64,000 bases of DNA from Lutjanus erythropterus (Eukaryota > Chordata > Actinopteri > Lutjaniformes > Lutjanidae), in contig CM034591.1 of NCBI GenBank assembly GCA_020091685.1, forward strand, positions 12,596,833 to 12,660,832, read 5' to 3'. The translations under genes were made by a program, and so were the position numbers. The notes under the pieces were generated by a model, which did no database searches, was not told the origin of the DNA, and saw nothing but the letters and a program-made list of their open reading frames with translations. Below are positions 1,771 through 49,515 of this stretch, in pieces (the stretch's first letter is position 1; each line of letters starts with the position of its first letter).

Positions 1771-1803
1771 CTCATCAACGATGCATTGCAGTAACTGGAG
1801 AGG
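1771..1803 (-). CDS. map2k5: map2k5 exon 19 (33 nt), last exon in window
   Basis: Eleven codons reading [11 protein letters not shown], residues 356-366. Acceptor ctcttccag|CCT, donor GAG|gtgagt. The following residues, which in mammals begin DSPVLP and run about 70 more, were looked for at 1-1770 and not found, so they lie outside the window. Confidence 0.96.
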
Positions 1804-4800: not shown

Positions 4801-6740
4801 CTTCCTCAAGGAGTTCAAAGATATTTCTTCAAGGGTGAGGAATCAGAAAACTCTTACAATACTCCTTTTTGATCAAAAATGTCAATTTCAACAAAGGTTT
4901 ACGAGCACATTTTACTTATGGGCAACAAGGGCAGTCCCACTCTGGCACTGCAGGGATATCATTAATATCACTATAAGAAAATGGAAAATGGTAAGAGGCT
5001 CGTCTTTGATAGGTTAACAACAATTAAGTCACTCTGTTAGCTTAAGATGTGTTACCCTGAAATTGTGCGCCGTTAAAAATCATCCAACGAGAGGAGCTCT
5101 TCTCTGATCTCATCCAAACTGACAACCTTTCATGCTTAGCCAAAAGCTTCAATGCTACCCAACTGAGATCCATTACATGGCAAATTTAGGTTAAATTAGA
5201 TTTGATAGTGTCTTTGGTTAGTGATAGTCTGGCTCACAGGAAGTAAGCAATTGGAAAAAGCCTGCCCTTGGCTGACTATTTTATTCAGCATTCACTTCCC
5301 CCTCCCACTTTCTGTGTTACCGTTTTTTAAGTCCCTGCTACTATGTGAAACAACAACCTCTGAACTAGCAACCTACACACTGAAAATGGCAACGTAACTC
5401 AACCACTGGCAGACTCAGACTATGTGAGGTGCAGGGGTGAAAGAAATAGAAAGAGCACCAGCTGTATGTGGTGTGGCACCGGCACGCCAAATTTATATTT
5501 TAATCTACTGGAGGGTTGCTCTAGACGGCCCTTTTCCACATTTTCTTCACTAAAGGGGCACCCTAGGGGGCACTTTATCACACTGTCTTGGGTGTTGGGC
5601 CATTCGTAGACTGCACTTCATCATGTTACATCTATCATAAGGGCATCCAAGAGGGCACTTTTGCTGCATTTCTTGAATATTTAGAGCATGAAACCACCAG
5701 TGACCCTAAACCTTAGCTGGTTGCTAATGGTACAAATGTAAACAAAGTATCAGCTGTTACCTTTTCTTTTGTGGAGACTTAGCCATTTTAATTCCAGGGC
5801 TCACCTCCCCACGTCCAAATGTTCCAGCAAAACAAGTTCACCCTGACGCTATTCTGCTAGGGCACCATAGTTGCATCCTGGGCTAAGCACCACCCAAGAC
5901 AACTGTGATCATTTTAAAGAAATACAAATAAGCCAGAACGATAAGCAAGAGTAAGCTCTTATCAAGTAAAAATACATCTTAAGATAATTAATCAACTGCA
6001 TAGAGAAGCTAAATACAAGGTTATGCTGACATTGTGCATTATTCATTATGTGTGGGTGACAATAATTAGCATAGTGATAAAAAGTGACAGATGTAGTGTA
6101 GTTTTACATAATCAAAACTGAGGAGGAAGGGTCAACATTTATTTCACATCACTTGCAATGTAATCTAAAACCTAAAAAGGAAGCCTAATACACTAAAATA
6201 TACTTTTAACTAATTTCTGACTGAGCAAAGTTCAAGAGCTTAGATGGCGTACGGTGCTGAAAATTACAGCAAGCATTGTTTACAACACACATACAGTACT
6301 AAAACACAATACCATTTCCTTTCCATTTCATTTGCAAGAAGAAAAAAAAGACAAAGTAGCAAACAGAAAGCATCTATGCTGTTTTTGATGGATGCAGTGA
6401 TGTGTAAAGGAAGATCCTGAAACATAAACACAAAAAAACTGACACAATATTTCATCCAGAAATTCATTCAAAATAGAGAAAATATGACAAAATAAAGAGA
6501 AACAAAAACAACCAGAGAGCAAACAAAAAGACAACAAATCAATCAGAAGCAAGAATGCTGGCGGCTGTGTACACATCACATCAGGTCTGGTGTCTTCAAA
6601 GACTTTCAGAGCGAGCCGTGCAAAAACTCCATTAACTCCTGACAAAGGACGCAAATGAATCCCGACATGTGGTGAAGTGGAATTAAAGCGACCATCTCTA
6701 ATCATGACAAACATGAGGTGATGATTCCATTGTGCATGTG

Positions 6741-6782
<42 letters not shown>

Positions 6783-9700
6783 ACAATAAACGAGCGATGA
6801 TGCATCAACTAAACATCCACAAATGAAAGCAACTGGCAAGCAAACATGTAAAGAGTGAACAAAAGACCCCAAACAACGTTAAAATTGGCTTTTTTAGCCT
6901 CAAAGCCAAATTCTACTCTAACAACTTCTCCTGCATCTTCTACTAGTCTACAGTGTAAACTCAGATGCCACTGATTCCCTTCCAGTGTCTCTCTGTCTTT
7001 CATCTTCTCCAACTTCTCCCTCAGTCTGTACTAAAATGTTCTCTGTGAAGTGTAGCAGGGGGTTTTGCACAGACAGCTGTGCCAGCGTCTGCAAAAATGA
7101 CAGCTTAGGCCCGAGGACTTTGGCTGACTGCGCCTGACGAGCTGGATCCGAGCGCTCTCGCCACACCGCTCTGCTACAGCCTGCAGGTGAACTGTCTGCA
7201 GTACCATATGGAGTTAGGGGAGAATTAACACTGAGAGGAGGAACGCTGCGTGACAGTGGAGAGCCTAAACTATAAACTGAGAGGTGTTCCTGCTATTTTG
7301 TTTTCCCCATTTATATCAATGAGGGTAGATTAATCTAAGGATGGGAATCATAAACGATTATCGATGCATCATGATTCCTCAACATTTTTGAGTTCTGTAC
7401 ATGATATCTTTTCTCACTTTGTGACTACTTGCTACTGCTACTACTACTAGCTTATTTGTAATGATCCATAATTAGTTTAGTCAGACACAACTTGCACACA
7501 GTGTAGCTCTTGTTAAGTTCCCTTTTCTATTCAACTTCACAGAAGCCAAAATTCTTCCATATGCCAGCTTTTAAGACAGGGGTTGCCGGTATCCAAAACT
7601 GGTACACTGAGTCTTAGAACAGGTTTATGTCAAGTACGTTTCACCATCCTATTGGTTCTGCCATGAGGAACATCCAACTCTGTCTTACAAAATTGTTACA
7701 GGCAATCACAATGTCAATTGGGTTTTAAATTTCCGATTATTGACGTTTCTTCATTGATCATAATCTTTCAAGAGAGCCCATTAATTTGCAAGAATATACT
7801 AACAATTATAATGATGACAGAAGCATTAAATGATGGAAGGAACAGCACTGCAAAATCAGACATGCCTTTAGCTGTAGTCATACACTCCACACATGTAGAC
7901 ACCTTGTGTGACATTTATACCTTAAACACAACTTTTCACCCTTTTACATAGGCCGGAATAAGTTTTTCATCATGACTTAAGAATTAATGGTCAACACAGA
8001 AAATAAATGAATAGCTACATCACAACTGTACTGTGGAAGTATGCAGCTAAGTACTGAATTGAATGTAACTTGATTACTAAAATATATTTAAATTCTTTGC
8101 ATCAAGGCTTCATGTAATTCATATCCATAACTATACAAATTGCAATGTGTTTCACATAGATAATTATTACACAATGCATGGCCCTGTGATGCGATGAAGC
8201 GTGATTTGAAGACACAGATCGCAAAAAGGAGGAAGAGACAGAAAATAGCAGAAGCTGAGAGAGGAAAAGGCAGAAACTGCTGAAAGTTTGGGATCATTTT
8301 GAGCTGAAACAAAACGAAAACTCAGTTGTAGGTGCTTACGGCAAAACTGAACTTGCCCTCCACAGAAAAACAATGCCAATGTATCAGCATCTCAGCAGAA
8401 AGCATACACTCTACGCATCCAGTCCAGAGAGCGCATCCAACACAAAAAAACATGTTAATATTAGAATTTAATGTAAATTAATATAATTGCAAGTTGAGAT
8501 GAAGGCGAATAAATAATTACATTAGTTATGGTAGCCTAAGTTAGTTAAGGTTAGGTATGATGTCCTTAAGTTAACTAAGTTTTGCTCAGTTTATGAAAGC
8601 CGAAGCATCACGATCTCACACACACACTCAGTAACGCATAAAATACCCCAGAAAGCAAAATATCACGTGGTCTAAGTTGCAACTGGAGCCTTAAATGCAC
8701 CAATCCAGCACAGCAGGTATATTCAGGGGGTTTGGTGTTGTTTTGACAGATTTTATCCTTGTATGCAGCAATAACGATGTTGATTTCTATAAAAAGGAAA
8801 GCACACTAGTTGTTTTTAAGAGACCTGTCTTATTTTCTAATTTGTATTTTGTATTTCTACTATTGTTCTTTCATAAAGCAGAGGTATTTCTTATCTGATT
8901 ACTCAATTAATCAATGAAATAATCAGTAGAATACTCGATCATTAAAATAACCAATAGTTTACCAATACAGCCCTGAGTTCTTGTAAAGACACATTGGAGT
9001 TCTCTCAGCACACAACAGATAACATTAATAGGTTAACATCTTCAAAGAAACTTAACTGACAATAACATCCAAAACATCTGTGGCCTAAAAGAAATCTTTT
9101 TTTTCTTTTAATACACAGATCCTGAGATTCTTAAAGTCTCATTATGTTGTCCAAGTCCAACATTTAGTAAATTGGTTCTATTTTTCCGAGGAAGGATTGT
9201 CATCATACTGAAAGGAAGCAGTCACTCAGTCTCTGGGCAGAGAGTGCAGTGGTTACATCACACTCTGCTTCTTTAATCAGCTGCATTGAAGTTTCATTTA
9301 ACTGACAGAGCAGTTCAAGTGTTGCATACATTAAGCCCGGAGGAAAATTACACAGAAAATGATCAAATGTTCCAGTAAGCAGAACAGTGTCACGTCCTTT
9401 TCTTTCTTTTTTTCTTGTTAATCAAATTTTACATTCAAGTCTCCATGGCTGACTTGTTGACGTAGAAAATAAAAATAACTTTTTAATAACATAATTAAGA
9501 TTTTCAAAGCATACATTACACACAATAAAAATGTATTTCTAAGAACAAGTGTTTCATTAGATAAACTCCTTCACATTTCGTGAAGGCGAGCGGCCAGGAG
9601 GTAACCTGAGGTAACCAGATTTAGATTGCTCAGCTAGGGATTAGTGAGATAAACCCATCTTAAAGGGCTAATTAAGACTTGATGGGATTGGGAAGTCACT

Positions 9701-12700
9701 TCTGTGGTCGGCAATTACATTTGAGCAGGATTTTTAACTTAGTGTAATGAGGGGAAAAAAATGAACCCAAACAGTTGATTTACATTTAAAGCTGCATATA
9801 GCAACACTGAACAACTAAGTTATATAGATGACAGAAAATTAGATTTTGAGGTCAACACACATCTTAGTCTCATTCATGGTTTTGAATCATGATTAACGTC
9901 TCACAGAATAGTTCAAAGTACATCTCTAAAAACCATTTGACATTGGAATCATATAAATAATTCCCTGGGGGCAATATACATATAATATCTAAAATGTTAT
10001 TAAAACTTAAAAATCATGTACAAATCTAAGTTAAGCACAAGTACTGTAGTTTAACCACTAAAAACATTGTTATTGTAAACACAATACAGGAAGTTTTTAA
10101 CTGGTTATGACAGTCTCAGATTAATAATGATGTCTGTATATAACCTACATAAGCAAACAAGACCATCAGCAAGAAGACTGGCTCTTTTATATAATTATTC
10201 TTAATGCCTACTACTGGGTCATACTCTCCTTGAAATCAGATGAAATGAGCCTGTGTTTACATTTTCTCAGGCAAAGTTACAATGAGTAGTACATTAGCCA
10301 GTTAACGCTAAGATGGAGGAGATTTTTCTTTAGATAAAGTTATATTTTGTGGCCATGGTGGTGGAAACACAACTGCTTTCATTCATATGGGCCTCCTAAA
10401 ACAACACAATATCAACGTTGCTTGTAGCTGCTTTAAACTAACAGATAAAGGAAAAACAAAATAACTCACCTGTGGATAGGGGAACATGCCTAGCGCCAGC
10501 TGTGTGAAGAACAAAGTGAATTCAGTGTTACAGGAAATTCTTAGATTCTTCTTGAGACATTTCAAAAAAAAAAAAAAAACCCATTCCGTGATGCTTACAT
10601 TTGTGCAGCTTATAATGGCCAATTTTATAGTATGCATGATAATGTAATGCATATAATTCATGATAACAACACAAGATATGAAGGTCTTCAAAGGGACCTG
10701 AGAACTGATCAACACTGACAGATTATAAGAAAAATTTCTTGTATGGCTGCTGGAGTGGATTCAATGACTATACAGGAACTCATCATACTGTCACACCTCT
10801 TGTACACACATGCATTCACAGGATAGTTACATGAAGAGGGGTTGGATGAGGTACTTATCGATAGTCAGTGTATTATCTACACCGTAGAAATATAGACACA
10901 GATGCTATACTGGCTGCCTCGACTCTTTGCTGTAATTTGTCAATGTTGCTGCTATATTGGTCTGGGAAAGACTGGCCTGTGCACAAATACATGTAAATGG
11001 GGACTTCCTAGATAAAAAGCACTGTAATGTTTACACTTCTCAACCAATTTGAATAAGTCATTTTTATATTCAAAGATTTATCATCTATGTGAAGAAGAAA
11101 AATATTTTTCCCCTAACTTATGATCTAGCCAGCAATGACATGCATATATGCATGTTTGTTTGGTTTACAATGTTTTTGTTAAAAGAGTCTGGTTTCTTTG
11201 GAGAGAGCAATATCTGGCTTCTATAACAGTGGTTTCACATCAAAAAAGGCAGTCTGACAGCAAGGTAAAGCTGTGAGAGTATTCTAAGTGGGCCATTTTT
11301 AAGTGGCTAAAATACATTTTGCTGCTGAAGCCGTCCACAGCAGTACATTGCTTACCTTGTGTCCTGATACTCCTGCTGCTTCTCCAACCCAAGGGGCGTG
11401 TCAATCGCTATTTACTGTGGCTAATACACCGACTATGGATAAGTACCTCATACGGTCCCACTTCAAATAATCCGAACTATCCCTTTAATGTATAAATGCC
11501 TTTCCATTCCCAGTGACTTAACAGCATGGAGTTCAAGTGTAGACACAGAAGGGAAATGCTGCTAAAGCCACTGAAGCATTCAGAACTTGAGACTTTCTGT
11601 CTTTGAGGTAAGCTTAGTGCCCACCTGCTGATAACACTTCCTCATCAAACAACATCAGCTATTAGTTAATAACCCCCCCATGATTACCACCTGCAGAGAA
11701 CAAAATGGAGGGATAAAGATGAGGAGGGAGGGATTGCAGGACTTTTCTGTAGTGTGTGTGCATGTTATTTGGCTGGGGGGCTGGGTGACAGCTCTCTCTG
11801 ACATTTGGCAATTCACTTGGGGTGGGCATTTTTCATCTTGGTCAAGGGCAGCTTATTGGCGACATTACGTTATTAAAACATCAAAATGCTCACGGTGTTT
11901 CCTTGAACATAAATAGACCAACTAGTAGCCTAAAGATCAATCCAAATTGAGTAAGACAGCAAGCTATTTCATTTAGCTTAATGCACACATTCACAGCTAG
12001 AAATAACGGGTAGAAGGCCAGGGGGTCCACTGCTATAAAACTCCATCTTTATCACACAGAGATCATGTCAATAATTTTGACGTGGCTCCTTCCCTGTGAA
12101 CTCATCTATTATTGTTATAATTGTTATGATATTAAACATTATTGACAAACAAAGGCGAGGCAGAAGCCCAAATCATTTGTTATGCTGCAGAGGGAGAACT
12201 GTGGACTGAAACAGATGGGGAATCAATAACGTCAGAGGGAGGACAAGAGACGAGGAAAGTGTTATACTGAAAATGAAATGTTATTTGAAAACGCAGGGTG
12301 TCAGTCAGGCACTCGATCAACGCCACTGAGTGAGAGGAACAGAGATACTGATGCACATGCACATGGAAACACAAACACATATACATCTTAGAGAAACAGT
12401 CAGTCTGAAGACAATGTGTCTATAAGTTTCCCACACTTTTCTCTGTGTACAAATACCAAATATAGCATGATGTCATATATGATAGATTGTTGTACCTCCA
12501 TGAAAGAGATTCCCACACTCCAGACATCTGCATGGATACCATACTGTTCTCCCGATATCCTTTCCGGCTGTGAAGCAAAAAGAAAAACTGTAAGGGCTAA
12601 GTTCGAGGCTCTGATTCCTTTGCTTACTCACATCTTCATTAGTCCAACTTTAAAATGATCTGACATGAGACTGAACTTAAAGGAATCACTCACCGCCATG

Positions 12701-14734
12701 TATGCGTTAGTTCCCACGTACGTTTTGGCAATAGAATTCACCAGCTGTAAATGATATTAATTAACATTGGATAAGCAAATAATTAAGCCGCATACCATTA
12801 CAAATTCAGACCATTCAACTGACCATAATAAACTGTAAAGGGATAGTTCAGATTTTTTGAAGTAGGGTTGTAAGAGGTACTTATCCACAGTCATTCTATT
12901 ACCTACATTAAATGGCAGTTGGCAGCAGGAGTCCCAGTGTTGGAAACGAAGGGGCTGTGTCCACCAAAGCGTTTTTTCCTGAGGCCAGCGTTTTTCAATT
13001 TTTCTGCCACGTATTTACACTCTGCTACAAATGCCCAAAGCATGATGAGGCACTGAGCATCGATTCTGCGCTGAGCACATGGCAGTTTTTCTGGTCGTCA
13101 AGAGCTGACAAATGTTCAGCTTTGGGAAAAACGCAGTGGTCGTCTCTGTCACTTTTTACACAGCCATCCAGTCACCATGGTGGAGGGGTGGGACAAACAG
13201 GCTACCAGAAACTGTGTCCTGCTCTAACTCCTTAAACTGGGCTCCATCCCACTTCAACTCTTCAACCAAATGATGGTACTTGCTAAGATGTTTCCTTGGC
13301 CACACATCTCATGAACCTACATAGACTGGCAGGTCTGTCCTTTTTCTCTTTTCCAGTATTTGTTGATAACATAAACTGTCTAGGAAATTAGATATTTAAA
13401 ATAATAAATGAATCATTATTTCCAGTGATATTCCATATCATAGCAACCAAAGCGTCTTGGCTGAAGTAACGCTGTGCCTTCAAAGTGCTCTCATGCGCTC
13501 TGAGTGTTTTCAGTAGAGCACCTGGTGTTTTCAGCTGGGAAAAAAAACGCTTGGTGAACACAGTCTCTAAGCAATGTACTGCTGTGGACAGGGTGAGCAG
13601 CACCAAATGCATGCCATATTTAGAATATTTTCACCGCTTTACCTTGCTGTCAAACAGCCTTTTCCAACGGGAAACCACCTTTACAAAAATCATTCTCTCC
13701 AAAGTCACCAAACTCTTTTTCCAAAAACTGTAATATTACCTCACAGAACACAGGACTTGCTGGTCTACTGCTGCTGCTGCCTTGATGTGTTTGTTTATTT
13801 GTGTGACTTGCATAAATCTGAGCTATCCTTTTAAAACACCAAAGTCACACAATAACACAAACAAACTAGCCGATCGAGACAATGAAAGACCAGCAACTCC
13901 CATGTTCTGCAAGGCAAAATTACTTGTTTTTTTATCAAAGGAGTCTGGTTTTTAATCCTTTGGTGGCTACAATAAGTTTTGCTGCTGAACCTGTTCACAG
14001 CAGCACATTGCTTAGGTTACCACATTGGTACTCCTGCTGCTTCTCCAAACTGGGAGCATGTTGACTGCCATCTGCTATAGGTAATACACCGAACATGGTT
14101 CAAGTACATCATATAACCCCACTTCAAAAAATCCCATTTATTGCTTTAACCTGTGTAAACAACTTTTATGAGTCATTTCTTCATTGACCTATATTAGGAA
14201 ATAAAAAAAGACAGGTGCTGAACTTACATTATCTAAATCTATTGACATGTCAGGTTGATATTTTGGGCTGCTCTCAACCCTCGCACAAGGGAACAGGAGT
14301 AAGACAAGGAGACATTAGTGAGTCTGTGTTTGTGTGGATACAATGGCACATGCCATCAATGACAGGACTGTGATAATGAGTGTCTGTTCCCTTATGGCTT
14401 TTTTTTTTGGAATGTGCCCTACAGTGTGTGGGAGGGGGAGGGGGAGTGTATATGTGTGACAGAGAGATAAACAGAAAAACAGAGTTAAAAAGACAGAGGA
14501 CAAGTCAGTCCTGCTAGTGTTACACATACAGGGTGTAAAATTCACCTTGGAGCTTCCAAGCAAGCGGAGGTTAAAAATGAATAACATATTTGCAACAGAA
14601 AGGAGGGTTTGTGCGTGTGTGTGTGTCTGTGTGTGTGTCTGTGTCTGAAAAGGGAGACAGAGTCCTCGGGGTTGATGTTTGGGGAAATGGTGAAGGTCTG
14701 TCCCTGATGATTACATTACAAACACACACACTGC

Positions 14735-14786
<52 letters not shown>

Positions 14787-17700
14787 GACTGAGCTATTGT
14801 CTGCCACCCACGCTTTCCCCACATCTCCTGAATACATATCAATGAGGCTTCGCCGTGGTGTGTGCGGGTCATAATTATAACAAGTGATTTTTTTTGGAGG
14901 CTGCAGAACAATGGAGGTGGGGGGGTGGGAGTTAATGTGAGAGGAAGACCCCTGGGACAGTGCTGATGTTTTGAGTTGAAAATGAATGCAGTGATTGACA
15001 GGTTGACCATATGCACACAGATCTGTCCACACACACACACGCACACAGACACAGATTGCACAGGACTGTGGCGATGCAGCTGTAGACGATTGTTTTTCTT
15101 CTCTCTCTATCTATCTATCATGCTCACACAAACAAATCAGCGTACCTGCGTGCTGACACCAAAGTCACAGAGCTTGACTTGTCCCCGGGTGTTCACCAGC
15201 ATATTGGAAGGCTTGACATCTGCGGAGACAAACTGCTTCATAGAACTGCAACATCAGCACTCTGTAGCTTGTCTTTATCAACTCTGCTCTTTTTTTAATA
15301 AACACACAGCCTGCACACAACCTTACTCACCTCTGTGAAGTATCTTCAGGCTCCACAGATACGTTAGACCTTTCACTACCTAGAGGCACCAATGAAAGAA
15401 AAAATCTATTAATATCAACATCATTCCATGTTTAACCAGCACACGTCTGTATAATTAATTAATTTGGTTAATGTGGAGTGGTTACCTCCAGTTGATGTCT
15501 ACAAACTGAAGTTATAGGTAGGGAGAAAATTACAGTGACCCTGTTTACACATCACAACTTGGCTGTCATGGCACACGTCATTAAGGTGGTCAGTGAGCTC
15601 CTAAGAGGCCAGGGGGGTTAGACAAGATTCACCCTGAAATGTTAAAAGGGTTGGATACTGCTGTGCTGTCATGGTTCACACGTGTCTCTAATGGTGTATT
15701 GATGTTGCTCTTGGACTGGTAATCAGGAGTAGTGCTGTCTGTTTCCTGAATGAGGACCAGAGGGTGCGTTAGCTCTGATTATCATTCTTGTGAGAGCCTG
15801 TTGTTAGAAAACAGATTTTTAAACCTTACATTTAGAAGTTAGGTTGGTACAGTTACCCCGTTTCCTACAGATTGGCAGATGAGTGAGGCGTCCCAGAAAT
15901 GTGCTATGAGACAATGGCCTGTGGCATTCTGGACAAAAAAGGTCAATTGGATACTAGAGGTCTGCAAGCCTGTCGGGACCCAACAGGCCCTGACACGTTG
16001 AGTCAATTCGGGACGGGCTCTGCCCTTTTTTGTTTTTTAATAGATTAGGCTAATCTAACTTTTGCCTTTTAATTGTGCCCATATATGCTAGATGCAGAGC
16101 ACACTGTATGAAATATTGTTTATTAACTATATCATAAACAGTATAAATCTTGTACATCTGCATTTTTATTCACAAGCTTTACACGTGTCAGTTATTGTCA
16201 GGTATAATGCACCATGCAGAGCATCAGGGAGGAGTTGAAGTGTGTTCCTAATAGTTTCCAGTGGTTTTTTTTTGGAAGAGTTGTGATTGTATTACCACTA
16301 CAACTACTAACCACAAGTGTCATGCACACCACAAAGAAAACTAAGGGTAACTCTTTATTGACTAATTTGCTGCTGGATCATGTAGCTCATCTATATTCTC
16401 TATTGCATTCTTATTCTTCTCTGGAATGGACATATTCGTGGGCATAATTGCTGGTGGCACTTGTGGTCAAATGTTAGTACTGTGTGTGTGTGTGTGTGTT
16501 TTGCACTCATCAGAGAGTGCTGGAGTTTTCAGACAGTAAATGAATGAATACGGGTAGGACAATATATCAATATTATATCAATACTGTGATATGACATTAG
16601 ATAAAGCCTTAGATTTTGGATACTGTTATACCGTTACATGGCATGGCACATAGCTCATTGTGCTAATATTATGAGAAAGTACAGTCATCAGTACAATATT
16701 GTCACAATATTGATAACTATCAATAAAGGCATTAAGTGAATTTAAAAAAAAAAAAAGATTTTGTCCATATCACATAGCTCTGACATGAATGAACATATAC
16801 AGCAGCCACAGTGTATGTAATGGAGCCCATATAGGAGGGCTCTGTTACATACATTGTGAATTCCAGCAGCAGTGTAATGAGGGAGGACCTCGGTATTGAG
16901 GCTTTGCTCCTTCGCATTAAATGAAATTCACTGAGTTTATTAGGGAACAAAGAATTCCTCCTTGCTGTGTCTCCTTGGAGGTGTTATGTGTACAACTGAC
17001 TGGGAGAAAACACCAGGGTTAAAAACACACTGGAAGGAGCAATATATTTTGTTAAATAGGTAAGAGTGGACAGGCACTTGTTTGTCATCTTTGCGCAGCC
17101 CCCACAAGTGTATTATTGGTTGCACTTATATGACTCCACTTGCCTGGCTAGATTCATACAACATTCATAAAATCATCATATTTTTGTTTAAGTATTACTC
17201 ATCTCCCAAGGTGGGTATTTTTTCATTTATGGGATGCATGGGATGAGTTGATTCTAGCCTCTAGCTTTCTCTCATCCTTCGACAACCTCTGAGACAAATT
17301 AAGGAAGCACAAAAGCTCTCTGAAGTCCTGCTGCCTCAAAAGGTTGTGGTGTGAGTGCCACATAGGCAGTGTGCAGCTTCACTCACACCCTCTTGGGTGC
17401 TTTTCCTTCTGTGATAATTAACAACTGTGACAGTGGAAAGGAGGGAAAGCTGTGAATTGGAATTAACACTGACTAAATAGCTGTCATTGTTTGATTACGG
17501 ACAAAGTTAAAGGGGGGAGACAGAAAAGAGGAGGTGGAGATAGGAGAAGGATAATGAGGGTGGAAAAGAGACATGTATTTATCAACATCAAGGCCATTTC
17601 TATCAAAATGCTAGTTTTAACTGAGAGTAGAAAGGGAGGGAGAAAAGGGGAAAACAACAATGACTTTGTCCGTCACTTCACCAAATAGAAGCTAATTGAA

Positions 17701-20700
17701 AAATTCACACCTGTGGTTCTCTTTTCTTTTATCTTATTAATAAAATGAATTTTCCCGTCAGACCTGTCCTGTATCCGGCAAACAAATAACAGGTCACACT
17801 GAAAACTGTGACTGTCTGGCACACATGGACGATCACACTCTAAGGCACTCTAATAGATTACACACTTCAACCTACTACAAGTAGTTTTTAACTGGTTATG
17901 AAAAAGTCTTAATTTAATACTGATGCATCTAAATGACCTACATATGTAAACGAGACCATCAGTGAGAAAACTGGCTACGTTAGCCAGTTAAAAGGAGGAA
18001 GGGAAATTTTTATCCAAATCATTTTATTTTTGATGTTACATGTTGATGTTGTGTTTATGGTGGTGGAAACATTACTGCTTTTGTCCACAAGGGCCTCCAA
18101 AATCAACAAAATATTATAAATAATATACATATATATTATATATATATATATATATAGTTCCTTGTAGTAGCTTTAAATAAATGTTTCAAAAATGCCAGCT
18201 CTCAACTGAAATGTTTTTCTCAGTAATCAAGTGACTAATGAGGAGATTAGAAGTATTTCATGTAAACTTACTGCCACTGCGAATCCTCCCCAACACGTGC
18301 TCTGGTATTCTTTTGTAGACATCAAGAGAACCACCTGCAAAAGACAAATTATTCATTCAGGCATTGACATTATAAGACAGATTTTGTACGGTTTCTCAAA
18401 TAATTGCACAACGGTCTTTTTTGCACAACACACCAAATTCTTGTTGGCCATGCAGGTTGTAACACCCCACACATATCCAAACAAAAAACAGTTTCTTGCA
18501 ATTTCATCCAGATCCAGCATCTGCACAATGCTGTGAAGCCCAAACTGGCACCCATGTCATGAAAAAACAGTTGATCCTCTTAGACTTCAAATTCACACAA
18601 AATAACTATGTAAAATCCTCCTCCATTAAAAAAAAAGTTCTTCTTGTTATTGACTGTGCTGGACAAAAAAGATTCTGGAATATTTAAAGAGGTAGATGAC
18701 TTACAATAATACATACATACATACACTTTTTTGAAAAACGTACGCAGACACATTATTGTCTAGTGTCTTCATACATGCCTGGAAGGCATCTTTAATTAGT
18801 TACAAGTAAAGTGAGTCAACACAAGTACAATGACTATATTCACTGTTTGTTATTATTCCTCTTGCTGTCACTTTAATTGTATCTGTTTTATATTTGTCTC
18901 ATCAATAAAACATTAAGAATTAATTGATGTTTCTGCATGTGGTCCGATTTTAATAACACAATATATTCTTGTTTGCAATAATCAAGTACAACTGGAAATG
19001 ACTGATCAAAGAAAAGTTTCCTGAAGTAAAGAGAGCTGAAGGGTTAGACAGACTTTGCTGACAAGCTGGCCAAAGCGTGAAACAGGGGAATCACTGCATT
19101 AACACACACTTGGACAAACAGACACACCTAAAAACATAGACAGTCCCCCTTCTCACGCCAAACCAGACACACACATACAAACACACCTACAAATGCACTT
19201 AAGTCAAGATTTATCGCACCCTTGTAGCTTTTAGCACACGGGCATGCTAAGCAGCTCACAGCGATAAGACGTTCTCTTGATCTGCAGAAGTGTAAATGGA
19301 TGCGCGGTAGAGAGACGGAGGACAGTTCCCCAAAGTCTCCTCAACACAGCTGTGGCTCGCAAAGAAAGACAAACATGTGATATACTGGCTTAAGCCACAG
19401 AGAAACTCACCGTCCATAAATTCTGTGCATATTGATATCCTGTTCTCTACAAAAAAGGCACTGAAGAAAGTGATGATGTAGGGTGAATCACACTGTAATC
19501 AAGAGAAGAGACAAACTGATCATTAAAGAGCATGCCACAATATTTATCTGTGATACAGAAAGAATTTGTTAATACATTAATCTCATTATGAAGCTGAGCG
19601 AAAAGAGAGTATGTGATCAGGAATTTGACTGCAGAAGAGCTCTAGCAAGACTGAATTGTACAAAAAAAGTTTCTCGTGATCATTCCTACTTAAGTGATGA
19701 TAGTTAGAGCTCAAAAGCATGACTCAGGAGCATCAATTTGAAATCCATCATCTGTTTCTGTTTGGAAAATTTTTTTTATTTATGATTTAATCCTACATAC
19801 GCTGCATGGGAAGAGGGCTAGCCAGAGCTCGATATTAAGGACATCCTGTTGTTCCAGGGGCAATAAAAATAGCACCTAGAACACAAAGTTACAGCATCTG
19901 GGACAATTCTGGGACATATTGTCCTTATGCATTGTGAAAAACAAAGACCTACATCACTTTAATTGTTCGGTGTATGAATTAAAAAAATATGAAGTGGCAT
20001 CAGCACAAACATGCAAAATCATAAACATGATCATGTCATGGTGTTAAAAATAAAATTAAGTATTTACTATGAGATATGTTACAATAAATTTCCATTGCTG
20101 TATCTGAAAAAAGAGGTTTGCATTTGGGCTGTAGTTTGCAGTGAAGAAATAGTAACTCGACCAAAAATGGAAAGGATAATGAAAAATGACTGTGTCAAAC
20201 AACTAAGTAAATACAGGGAATAACTTGCACAACTTCTATGGTGGACAAGAGAGAGTCAAAGTGACTCAAAAATGAAAAATAGAACTTCAATTTGGGACAG
20301 TGGTTATAACTTTGTGACAGCTGAAAGTCGAATTCATGACGGTTGCGGGACACTGAAGAAAAAAAATTCTCGCTGAGCACAAAGGGACAGTCGTCAGTAA
20401 ACTCACATGGCTGGTCCATGTGTATGTTGCATGTGTGTCTATGTACCGCTGATCCCTGGCTTACATTGTAAGTCCAGAGGCGATAAATAACACTTCATTA
20501 GTTAAGGACTCATGGGTTATTCACAGTGTAGATCTGGTTGGACAGGAACCGGGGGGGATTGGGGGGGATTGTGGTGAAAAAACTAACCTTGTAGAGGATT
20601 TCTAATTCTGACATGATCTGCTTCTGTAATTCCACCGTGATATCCAGAGGAATGACCTGTAATCAAATGTGGGGAAAAAAGGTCCAGCCTTAAATAAACG

Positions 20701-23700
20701 CAAAATTAACAAGTTCTGTTGATGTTCTGACAGGACGGAACAGACTGAGTGTCAAGTTTATTATCACCAGAAAGGGAGGAGTTCTCACCTTGACAGCTAA
20801 AACCCGCTTGCCAAGAAGATGGTACGCTCTGGAGGGACAAAGCAGAAGATGATATGAAACAAAAATGATGAGAGCAGTCACTTTTTATTTTAACAGTAAC
20901 TTGAGTTTTTGTGTTTTGATTTTTAAACTTACAGTAGCTGGTAACACTTTGATTGATGGGGTGTGCATAACACTGACATGACACCACCATAGCCATGTCA
21001 TGACATCTGTCATAAACATTCAGGAGTCTTTGTGAAGGTTTTAGACTGTTATCATATAGTGTCATTCAATCAATCTTGCAATGCAAAGTTGACACTGTTT
21101 GAGATAAACTTCTTACAACAACTTGACATTTATCAAGTCATCATAGTCTGTCATAAACCTGTCCTAGCAAGCCTAATTATCAAACCTACAGAAACGATTT
21201 AGTTTTATTTGTTAACATTAAATTATACTGTCATATGCAGTGGTTTTGCATTTTCATGCAAAGTTGACAAGTCTTTGTTATAACAATTTGACATTAACCA
21301 CGACAACACTGGTAACAATGACAGAATTTTAAAAGCATTTGACAATGTAATAAAATTTAATGACATCTTTATGTCAAGTCCAAATAGTAACACCACAGTT
21401 GAAGTCAAGGGAGTTTTTCATGACACTGTTATAGAAGGATTTGACGGTGCAGTAAATCCTAATGGCATCTAAAACGTATCACTGACATCAATGAACAAAA
21501 TATTCATGACATTTATAACGCTCTCATGACAGCCAATGTAATGTTAATAGATAAAGCTAAATAGTTTCTCAGTTTCACAGCCCTGATATATCCATCATAC
21601 ACCCTGCAGAAACGTTCTGTTACTGTTGTGATGTTGTTGATAAATAAATATTGATCAGAGCGATCACAAATTGTTAATGTACTTATAATGTACTTAACAT
21701 GGTGAATAAGTTCAACTAATGGGTAATGAGAGGACATAAATGACAATGACATACGAAACTCCACAGGTTTTCTGTGTTTCTGACCAATAGTTGAGTCAGC
21801 ATGACAAAATGCCTCTGTCATTTCTGTTAAAGGTCAGAGGTCACAACCCAAAACCAGATCCAGTCAGCCCTATCACACGTTGTTCCAGACAGAGTTTTGA
21901 GTTGCAAGTGAAGCAGCAGTCACAGACCGTCCCCGTAATGATTTAATTATCAAACTCCTTAATGCCAAACATCGGCTTTAGTTACAGCCCTTGAAGGTTA
22001 GTTTACGGCACCAGTGACAATACCTCAGGACCTCTCAACATACAATCCTCAAGGACGAATACTGTCCAACAGCTGTCAGGTGATGGAGTTGAGGTGGGGA
22101 CAGTGGACGTCACACAGTCTGGTTAGCTTGCAAGCAGGCTTGGTGAACGTGATACCTGGCTACTCACCTGTCAGCGGGTCTCCCAGAGAGAGTGTGTATG
22201 GTGCAAGGTGTGATTAATGTGTCTTAGATTGGAGTATCACGTTGCTCTTCGGCCAGACACCTCAAAACTGGCCCAGGCCTTTAATTAATGACACCTATTA
22301 GTGCCATGTCAAGTATTTACCCACAGTCAGGACAAACAGAGACCTGTGTCAACTGCAGCTCTGCCATACTGTACTGTACTGTACTATATATAAAACTGCA
22401 GTTTGCATTTTAGTTTTTACATCTTTGATAACAGTCTTGTCACAGCTGAAGTCAAAAGCAAAACTAAAGACCTTTTAGAGATTAAATTAAAAGAAAAACC
22501 CAAGGTATCCAGAGAGAATCCACATTAATCAATTATATTCAACTATTCATTAGTTTCGTGATTTATGGCAAGGTCTCAATTTCCTTTCATTTGTAGGAAG
22601 TTCAAAATTGTGAAAATATTACTGATGTCAGCTTCTAGAACATGCTGAACTGTTTTAAGCCACATGGCAAGCTGTGCCTAAAAGTTCACAGATAAAAGAT
22701 ACAAAATATGGAAAGGCAAAAGATTCAAATAAAGTTCATAGTTATTAAAACAAACCATAAGCCTTTGTCTGACTTAAATGGACAGTGTATTTTCTTTTTG
22801 CCCCAAGAGTGCTGGTGTTTTTGATCTTAAGCGCCGTCTTTTCTAGAAAAGAGTTCTTTGCACATAAGGCTGATGGCCTTGTTTCCATTTTGATGTCTCG
22901 GTCTTCCTTTAAGCTACAATCAATATCAGTTAAGCATGACTGCTGCCTCTTAATTAAGATGAAGATGTTAATTGAGGCAAGATCGCAGGGGTAGACATGT
23001 TAAATACTGACTGGGCAGGTTGAATGTGTGTAAGGCAGTCTGAAAAGAGATTACACCAGGTCTTCACCATGCTTAACAACTTGTAGTTCCCAATGAGAAA
23101 TCATGCTGAAAGACATATCCAGCCCATAGCTGAATTCACCTTACTACGACTTAAACACATGAGAAATTAAGCTTTGTGTGCACGTGATACCATGTAAATA
23201 ACTTTCATCTGTGTTTGTGTGCATATGTACCTACATGCAAAGTCTCACATCTATTTATTAAAGCCAATGCTGTTTTTGTTTGTCTAAGTTAGATATACAA
23301 GAGTTAAAGCTATAATATGCACTATTTCTCCATTAAAATTTCTAAAAATGCTGGACCTACGCTATAGATATGTTGCGTTGTCTACTTAAATTATCCCAAA
23401 TATTTCCAGCAATAGTCAGTGAAACCTGTAATATATTCAAGGTAAGAGTGCATTTCCTTGCTAGCTGCTAGTTGCTATAATTTCTGCGAAAACACATCAG
23501 ACATAGGGATAAATTAGAGAATAAGGAAGGAAGTTGGCAAACATGATCACTTGTGACTAAATGTGACAAGAACAAAATTTTAGTATTGCCTTATTCATGA
23601 ACATGATTTCTGCCCGAGACATGTCAGATAGATTTTCATCTGTAATGGTGGTTATTTAACAATAAAAATAACTCTCATGACCCCATGCTACTTCAGATAT

Positions 23701-26700
23701 CACCAAACTACAGGAGACAGACCTCTAGAGGCAGAACTTTAATTGTGCATTTAAGAAATCACAATTTAAAAAAAAAGAAAAAAGAAGTGCTTTAAAGGCA
23801 TGTTTTTGAGCAGGAAATATGGTGTGACTACTGCTTGTTTAAAGCTTTATTCTCAGACTGTCCTTGACCACCTCAGGGCCGAGCATCCCTGTATGAGTTA
23901 CAGTGACAGGCTTGTGACAGCGGGAGACATGGGGACAAGGTTACATAGCCACCCCCCGCCACTTCCCCCTGATCTGACCCCAGTAAACGTGCCCCATTGC
24001 CTGGATCTTATTTACACTCTAGCTCGCTCTGTAATAAAAGCTCCATCATGCAGTATTCATAGGGCCTCTCTCTATGTCTCTGAAGTCGGGGCTGCGGGTT
24101 AGAGAGACCGGCCTCCTGGATCAGGGCTAACGTGGTACTTTTACACCGCCACATGGATGACGGGCCTGTCTTCTCCCTCCCTGACTCTCTCACCTGATAC
24201 GCCTGTAATGAGTCTCCTAACTGACACACAGACAGAAACCAAAACACAGACACTCACAGACAGACATAATGTACAGACTAAAGCTTGCTAAATAAAGGCT
24301 GAGAAGCTCAAACGTCAAAGTTGAAAGGCTTGTTTATATCTTAGCATGCTAAGAAGTGAAAGTAAATATTTCTCAGTTCCACAGATGGACTTTGATATCA
24401 CTTTTGAGAACTGGCCTCTTGTGGCTGAGAGAGAAATTACAACAGCACAACAGTTGTTGGTTTGCCATTTGCTGTAAAACAGCCCTAAATCTACACTGCC
24501 CTCAGATGTCTGGTGAAAATGTGGATTACTGATTGCTAAAGCCCAAGATGATTTCCTCAAATCTTATTTTGCCCACAACCCAAAAGTACAACAACCAGAA
24601 AACATTCACATTTAAGAAGCTGGAGTCCGAGGATTTTGACTTTTTTTTTCTTAAAAAATTATTCAAACTGATCAATCAATAATCAAAACAGTTGCCTATT
24701 AATTTAAGAATCGATTAATTGTTATGACTCTACCATTCACTCACTGTCAGACCAGATCTACACATGCCACACTGCGCCACCTCCAGGATAGGAAAGTAAC
24801 AGCTGAAACAGTTTAGACCTGCAGTAGATCACCATCTCTAGGAACATAAGAGCTGCTAAAATTGCACATCTTGCAACACCTACAGGCAGTAAGTGTTACA
24901 GCAGAAGTTTGTTCCATGTATACTTTCTGTTCATATTACCTCTGCCATGGAGATTATGTTTTCAGTGATGCCTGTCTGTTTGTCAGCAGAATTAAGGAAA
25001 AACTACTGACCTGATTTTCATGAAACTTACTGGAAGGTGTAGCATGGGCCAAGGAAGAACCCATAAAAGAGCATATCCAAATCACAGGACAGGCACAAAT
25101 TATTTTTCCCTTTTGCTAACATTACAAGATAGGGCCTTAGCAGAGGTATTGTAGGTTTCACAGTTTAGACTATGTCCCATTTAAGATTAATTGGAACATC
25201 ACTGTGTCACTCTAACCTCCAGTGGATACCAAATAATCAAACAATCATACCACAATCATTTCATAATCATTTAGCTTGAGGCTGCAAAAGACAAACCAAT
25301 TGTTTTTTAAAGTTTTGTAAGTGAATGTATTTTTTCCAATCAGGTTTCAGATTACACTTTCAGGTTTTTAACCATTAGATAATTTAGCCTAATTGTCTGG
25401 AGAAAAACTCAAAGAGCCAAACTACTCAAACAAAAAAAAAAAAGCAAAATGATTTCTATAAGTCCAAATATTCAGCTCGAGTGACAAACGTTGACATAAT
25501 TTTTGAAGTTTTGCCAAATATTTGTGTCCATGTAATGATAAATATATTGCTCTTTGAGGGGTACTGATAGAGGATAAAATGGCTACAGTAAATGGAACTC
25601 ATGCTTTACATTACAAAAATCATCATTTTTGTCTCATATAAACATCAAATGCCATTCTCTGTGAACTCTCTGCCTCTGTGAACTCTGTGAAAAAAAACTG
25701 TGAAAATAGCATTAGAGCAGCCAAATACATTAGTCACTGGTTGGTCATTGATAAGGGAATCAAATAAGCATTGTAACCTTCAAGAACATAGGATTTAGGG
25801 TTGGGTGATGTCTACTAAATTGGCATTTGATGATGTACACAGTGAAACACTGTCATGTACAATGATATGGTTGCCGGGTCTAAAAGGATCTTGATCTCAG
25901 CACCACGTCAGTAACTTAGCTGTGTTTAAAAAGAAAATTCTAAACACGACACTAAGACATAGCAGAAATGAATAGCAGCAACAGCAACGCCAAAAATGAA
26001 CAACTCTATGGCAACTCTAAATGGACATACTCCCTAAAATACAGAAGGCTTTTACGATGGTAGGGGGCTCACTGGTTGATGACTGTCAAACATCGCAATG
26101 GACAAATAGCATTGTCCGTCATCTCAACCCTAGTAGGATTTATTAAAGAGATGTTGCATTAGACTGAATTTAAGGAGTGCTTCATCAGCTTTATAGTTAA
26201 GCATTTACAACTAATTTCAAAACAAATCTGATTTACCTATTCCAACCCACTACACCATGTTTAACAAGGTGAAGTATCAAACAGCCACCACAATCTTCAA
26301 AACACATTTCATATTCTCTGCTCAGGAGAGACAGTTTATTTACCAAAATAAAATCAAAAGCAAGTACAAGCAGGTACGTCAAAACCAATCAAAAGAGTTC
26401 ACTTAAAATACACTTGAGAGGCACTGTGACACCAGGTTTAAATTGCAATCCCATTCAACTCGCTCTAGGCACAATCTGAAAATATCTGGATACAAGATAC
26501 CATGTTACCACCAATTAACCAAAGAGGTTTGGCTCTTCAATGTACAGTCTAATCAATGAGGTGAAAAAACAAAATCAATGGAGAAAATGGTCTGTGAGAC
26601 TAAAGGAACAGCTGTGGGTGTCTAAGTAGATGTCACCACAGTCACAGCCACGCAAATGTGCTTGTTTTAATTGCACTGCTGGATCCATGAGTCATGAAAA

Positions 26701-29700
26701 TAGCCTGTGTGTCCTTGTTATTGTATTTATAAGCCATAGAGTCAGTTAGATTGGTGGACAAGATGGACCTCTGAGAGAGTGTGTAATAAAAACCAAAGGC
26801 TGACATTGATAGATGGCTGGGTCAGCTTGTGGCTATGGAGAGCTGAGGTGTTGGTAACATCCAATTGAGTCTAAATGGCTCTGGGTCATAAATGGGCTAA
26901 GAGGTTAAAAGGTGGGGAGTGGTAGTGCTTTTCACACGTGATAAGCCTAATATAAGCTGGACCAAAGGGTAGAGGCTGAAGAGGACAGAGAATTGGTTTC
27001 TAAGCAAGCAAGAGGCCTGTCCAGGCCCTCAGTGCATAAAATATCGTGACTGGTCTGAAATGAATTCTGATTCTGCCGATATCACAGGCTGTTAAGAAGA
27101 CGCTTTAATTACGCGTCAGAGCTTAATAAGTAATGGGAAAGTAAATCTGGCAACTCACTTGGTAAAATTTGGAATTTAACTATTCAACTAGTTTCATGAT
27201 CAATTAATTAATTGTGCAAAACGGCAAAAAAAAAAAAAAAAAATGCTATTTTCAGCCTCTCAAACATTGAGATTTTTGCTTTTCTTCGTTTAATATCCAA
27301 TGTATCCAAAATGTGACATTTAAAGAAATCACCAGGGACTTTGAGAAACTGGAACAGACATTTTTCACTATTTTCTGACATTTTATAGAAACTGTAGCCT
27401 CAGATTAAACATGGCATTAATTTTAGTCGTTGTTGTTATTTGACTTTATTTGATCTCTAATAAATAAAAAAAATTTAACTTCAGGCAAGGAGATTTATAA
27501 CCCACTTTCTAACCCTGTGTGCACATGATGCGAGTATGTCTGTGGTTTGTTTTTTGAGGTGTCTGAAACAGACAGCAAAGTTGCTATTTACAATTATTGC
27601 TCAGCATCAGTCATGATAGGTTGAGCCAATCACATTCTTTTAACACTACAAATTTAACTGCCCATCTTAAGAGCTGTCATCCTGAGCATTACAAATGTTC
27701 CATGAATATGTGAAGAGCGAAGAGAAACAGGCACCAGTGAAAAGAACCTGTCTGCAGCAGTTTTCTTTTTATGCCCAGCAAATGTGTACATTTTGGAAAG
27801 CATTGTATTTTATGTCTGCATCTGCCCGTGGGCCATTACAATAAGGGTAGGCATAATAATATGTTAATTCCAATACAGGAGAGGCTTGATGTTCTCTGCA
27901 ATTAGGTAGAACATAATATGTGCATATATCTATATTTGCAATCGGCCAAAATGAGTTGGAAAATATCAGCATATCAACAAAAATCTGTTTTTGAATTTCT
28001 AAACAGTATTTTAAAATATTGCTCATTTCCTGCTTGACACAGGAAAAACTGTTTAGTACAGCTAATTAATACAGATAAAGCTACAGTAATTTTCAGTGAG
28101 TTTTACACCCAAACAAAAGTGCATGTGTGCCTGTGATACTGAAAACATGCATCTGGCCGATATTTTTCCATCTCTGGAAAAAAAATCATTATTATATAAA
28201 TATTTGCCTGCTGAAATAAAAAATTTTGGGACAGTTTACCTTTATTTGATAGTGACAGCTGTAGATACAACAGGAAAGGGGGTAGAGACAGAAGGAATGA
28301 TACGCAGCTAACAGGCCACAGGTGGGAGTCAAACCGGCGGTCACTGCAGAGGACTGATAGCATCAGTACTTGTGGCAGACAACTGAGCCACAGGGGCACC
28401 CTGTCACTGGCATATTTTATCAGCTGTTGATATTTGGCATTAATTCTAAAAGCTGACCAATGACAAATAATGGGGACAGCACACATTGGAGGACTGTGAT
28501 GCACGATATGCCGAGGTGACAGTAACCTCCTGGCCATTTCATCGTGATCACTTCTTCAGTTTGCAGCTGATGCAACTCTATGTGACACATGGCAAAAGTA
28601 ATTAGTCAGCTGCAGCTTCCATACCGTTTGATAATCTGACTGTTGCTATGATCCAATTACTTTGTTGAGGACCAATGACCAGATCTGCAAAAACATAACA
28701 CAAGTTGTAATAAACCGCTGTTTACCTTTAAGCATGTATCAGCAACTGACTTTTGGGTTTCTTCAGCGGATGTTTAAAATTTAAAACTGCTGCAGTAATA
28801 TTTAAGCAATGCATGCACCAAACCCAAATAAAAACTGGAGCAAAAGAATGAAAACATGCATTAATGGAGAAAACATCTTTCTTTTCCAACAAAACTAACA
28901 GGTAAACCACAGCGAGGCAGCCCAGTAGTCTGAAGAGGAAAACAGTCGTTTGTTTGTTCTTTTTACCACACAGAAGTACATGTTTTGTTCAAAGGAGCTC
29001 TACTGTGAATACTGCTGACAAGTAAACATTGTAATTAATGAAGACATTTAAATATATTGGGGACAATTAGACTAATCCATGCTAATGCAATGCCCCTTTC
29101 TTTTATCTCTGTACAGAAACTAAACACAGAGGTTGTGGTTGATTGAGCAGGACAGTAGATTAAGGTGATCCTTCCAACCTGGACTCTTCACATTTTCATC
29201 TCTTTATGCACCTGATTGGATAATCTCAGCTTCCTGTCCAGACCCTTAAGAAAATCCCACCATGATAAAGCTTCTGTGAGGACAGACTGGATAATTCTGA
29301 TGTGCTTAAGGCATCACTGTTTATCTTAAAATACACTATTAGCACGAAATGCTTTTACAGAGATATGTACAAAGAAGAAAAGATTACTTTATTTGTAAGT
29401 TGAAATAAGTTGACTGGAACTGCTAAAGCGAAAAATCCAGCCAGACTGAATACAAGGTGAGGCCAAGGGAAGAGCGATATTAAATAATTGGGAGCTTTTT
29501 TCTGACTGTGACAAAATAATTAAAATTAAAGAAATGGGGAAGCAATTAACAGTTACTGATGAAAATTTCTAGGAGCCGATGTCAAGGCCACCAACACAAT
29601 TAACACCAATTCTGTTATAAATTCACAATTTTGAGTTTCCTCGAGCTCTAATGACTAGTTATAAAGGGGCAGGAAGCCTAGAACACTAACATATTATATT

Positions 29701-32700
29701 ATGCCTTTTCTGTTTAATGCATTTATGGAAGGGATTTTATTCATTTATTTTTTATGGCAAAAGGTGATTATTGAAGTTGTACTTTAAGTACCTTAACGAT
29801 TAGTCAAGCTTGTTCCACAAAGACATGTAGTCAAACAGGGTCCTGCTTTAAGTGCTGTTGTGTCTGTAATTTGGGTCACCAGGGTGGATCTGAACGGTGC
29901 TATCTGAGAACTTTTGTCCTACTCAAGGGTTGTATGTTTATGTTCCTGTCGATGAAAAAGCTCAAGTCAGAGGTCTATAATTACAGTAATTTTATTGCTG
30001 TATTTGCAATTAAATGCATGAGAAATTTGGGTTGATAGAGTAGCTGTTCTGTTTTTTGACTGGACCTACTGGTGGGTGATATTAGGTTTGCTGGCAATGC
30101 CTGGTTGAGGGAACTATTCAGTATAATTTTAGCTTTCATCATCAAGACAGAATCTCCAGTGTCATGTTGGAGTCAGAGTAGACCTCCTTCAAAATAAGAG
30201 GAAGAGGCAGTCCAAAACATGGTTGATGTTTACTGAACTACTGCTAACTCAGCAGAAAACATGCTTAGAATTACCATGTAGTATGAACGTGAGCCACAGA
30301 ATGTGATCTGTGATAGGCTTTAAGGGCTACATCTTCAAGCTCTCAAAAAGTATGTTAGGGCTCAAGTAAAAAATGAGATATATCTGAATTAAAATAGACA
30401 TGCAATAAAAAATCTACACCAACATAACACAAACAACCAGGCTTTTGTTTTGTCTGTATTTTTTTTTATCATCTCTTTTCAACCATAAAAAATTTCAGCA
30501 CCAAAGCATATGGATTTTTTTGTGGGGCTAAATTGACTGAGAAGTTGTTGGGCTTGCAGTATTGGCCTTCACCAGTGCAGTGTAACCATTTCTGGGGCCA
30601 AACTTATCAGAAATCTTATTCTCCTGCACCTATGAGAGATTGGCTCTTAATGAAACTATCTCAAAGTCATAAAACTGTAAAAGGTGGTTGGAAAGAAAGG
30701 GGTGAAAATAAAAAAAGACATTCTCATGGATTTGCAAGGCAGGAAATTTACTGGGTTTTCTGGGGACCGTGTGAGGCAGACCACTCTGTCAAGTCAAGGT
30801 TAGCCTGAGCAGTGATCAATACTTCAATCTCAATAAAACAGCTCAATAGCTAAAGATTGATGGGAAGAAGGAAACACAAGGTGGGGAAAAGAAGGATAGA
30901 AGGAGTGATACAAATGCCAACCTTGTCATAATGTTAGCAGGGCAGTAATACATTTGTCTCATCACAAAGGATGGAGCTCTTCTATAGTGGCAGGTAATGT
31001 GCTGTACTATAGACAGATTAACTCAATTGCTGTCATACCTTACAGCCCCAAATCAATATCATATATGTTTGCAACCTTCAAACCAGAATAAATAAATGCA
31101 GGTAGAGAGACAAACAGCCTGATAGATGTCACACCAAACACTGAGAGATAAATGGACGGACGAAGGGACAAAGGAAGGGTGGTGAACAGTAGCATACCCT
31201 TCACAGAACCCTACTGAGTAATGTGTTTGTTGTAAACATGAGCAGAAAAAACATCAGCAATCATATCACATCAGTCTCAAACTGGCGACTAATTGCAACA
31301 TTCTTCCTGAATATTTGCACTGTATTGCTACCGTGTCACTATCCGTTATTGTGCTGTGGCCTTGTCATGTTGGTGCTTCAATGTGGGAGCCAGCAAACAC
31401 TTACTTGTAAACTGTGCCTCCGTTTCCATGGCCAAGCTGCTCTTGGTAGTGGATGTCTTGGGCATTTATCTGCAGAGCCACAAAAACACACACAGGTACA
31501 CAAAAGGTACTTTGATGTTATAACATGAGAAGACACGCAACCAGTGGATGATCTGTGTAACTACACAGGTGAGAGGGAGAAGGGGGGGGTACATTGTCAC
31601 CAGAGGCTATAAACAAGACAAGCATTCAGGTCACTCCAAGTTCAGCAACATAAGGAGAGAAAACACAGAGGGGCAGGAGGAGGAGAAGAGGAGATCAATA
31701 CAACATTTGCTGTCCAATTTATAAAAGGACATTGTGCTTGGGTGAGTGGGGGAGTGACTGATGTAGAGTTTAACGACAATTTGTTGGCTGTTGTCGTTCT
31801 AGTCTACTTTGATAAAAAAAAAAAAAGTGTCAGAGGCTGGTAATATAATGTAGCCTGACACAACATAGCTGGTCTAATGTTTCCTCTTCTTGCCCATTTT
31901 CAGAATACCAGTCAAAATTTTCCTGTAGGATAATTTTGTAGTTCTGATTTAAGTTAAGTTGGTCTAGACCTGCTCCTTATGAAAAGTGCCTTGAGATAAC
32001 TTCCATTAGGATTTGGTGCTATTATACATACAAATAAAAATTAAGTTGAATATAGAAGATTAAATCTGTTATGTCACTAATGATGGAGTAGGTTAACGCA
32101 CTGCCTGTCTGATGATATTGTGCGGATAATCACAAAAATAAACAATAAGGAAAACATTTCACAAAAGCTCTACAGTTATAAATGACACTTTTAAGACTAA
32201 CCAAGAGCCTTCTCCTCATATAGGTGTTTATTTTAACTGAAATTAATTGAACTACACCGGATAGTCATTCATGAATGTATTTTCACAAATTATCATGTAG
32301 TGTTGATCCTGGTATTGAGTACTGGAGTGAAAATTACTGTATTCTAACAGTGACTATTGTGTTTGAATCTCTCAAAGCGATAGTTCACCCCAGAATGAAA
32401 TTTCACTCAATATCTACTCACCCCTAGCTGATGTGAGGATGGGTGAAAATCTCCAGTTCTGTTTCTTCAGCAGAAAACAGCGTTTCAGCCAAATCCAGTA
32501 CAACTGAAGTGAATGGTGACCAGTTTTAAAATGTAAAAAAATAACACAAAAAAAACACAAAATGTCTCCATACTGCTTGTGTGATGTAATCCAAGTGTCC
32601 GTAAGCCACGACAATAAAATCTGACCCCAAAAGACACCATTTACACCATGTTTTTAGCCTAAATGTCAACTGTAGCCTCTCAGACCTGATCCTCGTGCAC

Positions 32701-49433: not shown

Positions 49434-49515
<82 letters not shown>
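49434..49515. repeat. (ATCT)20 microsatellite
   Basis: About 20 perfect tetranucleotide units. Confidence 0.98.

Follow-up and report, generated by a model that had tools for sequence, protein, structure and literature searches.

Is the break in the reading frame of map2k5 a property of Lutjanus erythropterus or of its genome assembly? As assembled, no single open frame runs across all exons of this gene, which encodes the kinase MEK5, because the frame is lost in exon 12. If the responsible base were real and common, this would be a vertebrate that lacks a kinase indispensable to mice, or one in which that kinase is rescued by a shifted splice site. Here, we describe the gene, its break and its surroundings, and conclude that map2k5 is probably intact and functional, the surplus base being most likely a single-base error in the assembly consensus.

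Results

The window, by which we mean the whole 64,000-nucleotide stretch that was analysed (C1:12596833-12660832), contains no N and holds coding exons 1-19 of the 22 exons of map2k5 on the minus strand (1771..47481), as established by tblastn, a splice-site and phase table, Pfam PB1 and Pkinase matches, and solved relatives. With human MEK5 as the query, tblastn against the window gave exon-by-exon matches on the minus strand from 47481 to 1765, and the short exon 9 (20828-20789, minus strand) was located by a separate scan for a small exon. In the rebuilt splice-site table all 18 junctions between these 19 coding exons are AG/GT, and according to the phase table each exon is entered in the expected phase once exon 12 is taken to be 62 nt long. 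Exons 20-22 lie outside the window in two flanking pieces, of which L002 carries exons 20 and 21 and L004 carries exon 22; all three are open, with junctions read by eye, and exon 22 ends in a stop. The complete gene thus comprises 22 exons with a single defect in roughly 1,350 coding nt, 21 of the 22 exons being open and in phase. Intron 2 holds a retroelement remnant (44947-46319, plus strand) in three open pieces, the first of which matches reverse transcriptase (PF00078, E 2e-9) while the other two have no Pfam match. A perfect ATCT tetranucleotide array of 20.5 copies (49434-49515, 100% matches) is a candidate polymorphic microsatellite. Across the window, no tRNA genes were found and Rfam gave no match at gathering scores.

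The predicted product has the domains expected of MEK5. An N-terminal PB1 domain is present (PF00564, 32.4 bits vs a cut-off of 23.6), and in a search of solved structures, residues 6-122 of the query align with the MEK5 N-terminal fragment 4ic7_E (E 2.6e-40). Pfam finds Pkinase in both pieces flanking the break, its first part before it and the remainder after it, at 55.8 and 121.7 bits, and no family at all in the 37 foreign residues that the shifted frame encodes. The piece after the break carries the HRDVKPSN and CDFG motifs, and MEK1 and MEK2 rank within the best 60 of 387 solved matches.

Exon 12 (18272..18334, minus strand) is 63 nt long by direct reading, where the phase table calls for 62, and the frame is lost after ...EHVLGRI. 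On the minus strand, the exon ends in ...GTG TTG GGG AGG ATT CGC AGT GGC A, followed by a gtaagt donor. Exon 13 (15331..15379, minus strand) is usually entered after ctctag and begins with GTAGTGAAAG, as placed by the splice table and by acceptor scoring. When the usual junctions are used, the joined frame is 299 aa long, with 262 MEK5 residues followed by the 37 foreign ones, and it terminates at a premature TGA in exon 14 that sits within the Cys-Asp codons of CDFG (15165..15167, minus strand, coordinates worked out from exon lengths). Judged from the reading frame, the shortened product would retain PB1 and the initial portion of the kinase domain but would lack the HRD and DFG motifs, and since eight junctions lie 3' of the exon 14 stop, nonsense-mediated decay of a mutant transcript is expected by the general rule. 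The sequence-only reading of this DNA had described a surplus base in exon 12 that breaks the kinase frame, all other junctions in phase, and a new stop at the DFG codons of exon 14; the rebuilt gene bears out each of these points and has the same exon number, donor and acceptor.

That reading had also placed the surplus base at 18281. We deleted each exon 12 base in turn and scored the resulting protein against human MEK5 over 36 residues. Deleting 18281, 18282 or 18283 gives an identical best protein, with 33/36 residues equal to the human sequence; deletions at 18278-18280 or 18284-18286 give 32/36, and all remaining exon 12 positions give 31 or fewer. Position 18281 therefore fits best but shares that place with its two neighbors, and the surplus base is one of 18281..18283, in minus-strand letters either the C (18281) or a T (18282 or 18283), depending on whether the original isoleucine codon was ATT or ATC. 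The longest single-base run within 10 bases of the break is 4. Inferring a cause from the type of insertion was dropped, since the inserted base is not identifiable.

The flanks of map2k5 show no comparable damage. On its downstream side lies a 616-codon open frame on the minus strand (C1:12546833-12556832, bases 3042-4889), an exon that we take to be SKOR1-like. On its upstream side, highly conserved, open smad3 exons are found on the minus strand (C1:12680833-12700832) and cover 357/425 residues of human SMAD3, the first 66 residues being without a match. No second break occurs in the roughly 4.3 kb of local coding sequence formed by map2k5, the SKOR1-like exon and smad3, which is too little to set an error rate.

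Discussion

Several lines of evidence argue for an assembly error. The roughly 1,350 coding nt contain no defect besides this one, every junction is AG/GT, there is no other stop, and both pieces of the kinase still match Pkinase and MEK1. The unbroken SKOR1-like exon and smad3, within 100 kb of flanks, imply that the region is not decaying. Loss of the gene is also lethal in mice: an excerpt of PMC8303459 describes Mek5 knockout mice dying at about E10, and this lethality likewise counts for an error. Two routes could have produced one, namely a residual long-read insertion left in the consensus or an indel created while two haplotypes were merged. PMC8081667 names short consensus-calling indels as the commonest errors before polishing and as a cause of frameshifts, and equates Q40 with one error per 10 kb; indels produced by merged haplotypes are described in part of PMC5632298. 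Against this reading, the assembly is a long-scale one, with contig C1 spanning 49.5 Mb, and if high-accuracy reads were used to build it, an error at a site with no long homopolymer would be out of the ordinary. The lack of a second local break, moreover, does not favor a high error rate for the assembly. We nevertheless infer a technical rather than biological origin of the surplus base as the most likely one. The sequence-only reading had likewise put an assembly or read error first and a real null or variant allele second, an order supported, as a judgment, by the lone defect, the open neighbors and the lethality in mice.

The best-surviving alternative, which we consider unlikely, is a loss-of-function allele in one copy of the sequenced animal, such that the assembly displays the broken haplotype while MEK5 is produced from the other copy. 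Some frameshift alleles are to be expected in diploid animals, and a rare, recent null would be expected to look much like what is found here, an isolated defect in otherwise unbroken coding sequence with a shifted frame that terminates well before the last exons. A T-to-TT change also fits the sequence, and a surplus T next to another T would be an ordinary type of natural mutation as well. Weighing against such an allele is the essential role of the gene in mouse development, as related in the excerpt of PMC8303459. In addition, a search of the 938 Mb assembly (444 contigs) with a 200-base stretch around exon 12 found no match beyond its own place, in a DNA search whose counts are lower bounds, and so offers no alternate haplotype for comparison. 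Our targeted literature search found no report of a natural MAP2K5 frameshift; as regards a zebrafish mek5 mutant, part of PMC5580709 describes a knock-down by morpholino.

A real change might instead be tolerated through splicing, if exon 13 were entered 4 nt later than usual, although we regard this as highly improbable. The usual acceptor, ctctag, is followed by GTAG (15376..15379, minus strand), whose second AG precedes TGAAAG, and we recovered it by enumerating donor shifts from -60 to +40 and acceptor shifts from -120 to +45. Used with the usual donor, this acceptor would restore the frame (+1 - 4 = -3) and yield GRI-RSGM-KGLTYL, a MEK5 one residue shorter with RSGM in place of AVAVV. 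Among the 17 frame-keeping donor/acceptor pairs it is the closest to the usual sites, its product keeps the match to MEK1 at 221.5 bits, and an excerpt of PMC8055015 describes a catalogue of human tandem splice sites that disrupt the frame, mostly suppressed by decay, which we counted in favor of this possibility. The site itself, however, scores poorly. In a weight matrix built from the 20 other acceptors of map2k5, it reaches -1.3 vs 5.9 for the usual exon 13 acceptor, and in leave-one-out scoring 19 of the 20 others exceed -1.3 and 13 of the 20 exceed 5.9; the matrix is a weak judge, giving 6.1 to an AG that lies 126 nt upstream. The match to MEK1 (9axh_A), the best solved relative, drops to 221.5 bits with the altered segment, compared with 229.8 when the break is filled by three X, and the true drop from an intact segment is probably larger. 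Use of the +4 site is possible but unsupported.

Other ways around the break fared no better. The remaining 16 of the 17 frame-keeping pairs lose more residues, many with GC or poor donors. Leaving out exon 12 fails to bring the frame back, as the phase of entry is 1 for exon 12 and 0 for exon 13, and a tblastn search with human MEK5 at E up to 100 for an alternative second exon 12 returned just one minus-strand match that covers GGSLDVY. As an observation in its own right, the two AG acceptors of exon 13 lie 4 nt apart (tctagGTAG, then TG), and use of the second in an unbroken allele would shift the frame and so appear as a decay-prone isoform.

Least probable of all is a fixed natural null or very recent pseudogene in the species, with a paralogue perhaps standing in for it: the assembled frame is broken, but a pseudogene would be marked by multiple disabling changes or missing splice sites, and we find one defect, 18 AG/GT junctions, the last three exons open, no further break across the 22 exons and no second exon 12 region in a DNA search, which would miss a diverged paralogue. 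We judge it very unlikely that a real change, common or fixed, leaves the species without the MEK5 kinase core or with a +4-acceptor MEK5 altered in a short kinase segment; this judgment covers the share of the resplicing and fixed-null readings that involves a change of such frequency.

On the preferred reading of an assembly error, the frame break in map2k5 is most likely not a real biological feature. The practical consequence is one of caution, as gene prediction on this assembly would shorten or omit MEK5, and a comparative study could record a false loss of map2k5.

The gene described here resembles known MAP2K5 / MEK5 in both of its domains, PB1 and the MAP2K kinase domain, and in the 21 of its 22 exons that are in phase, and differs from it by one surplus base in exon 12 of this assembly. 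A likeness is also found in TLK1 of Anna's hummingbird, likewise a conserved gene whose frame is broken in a vertebrate assembly, as described in PMC8081667; for TLK1 the cause was traced to an unpolished locus, whereas the map2k5 break is seen here in the assembly sequence.
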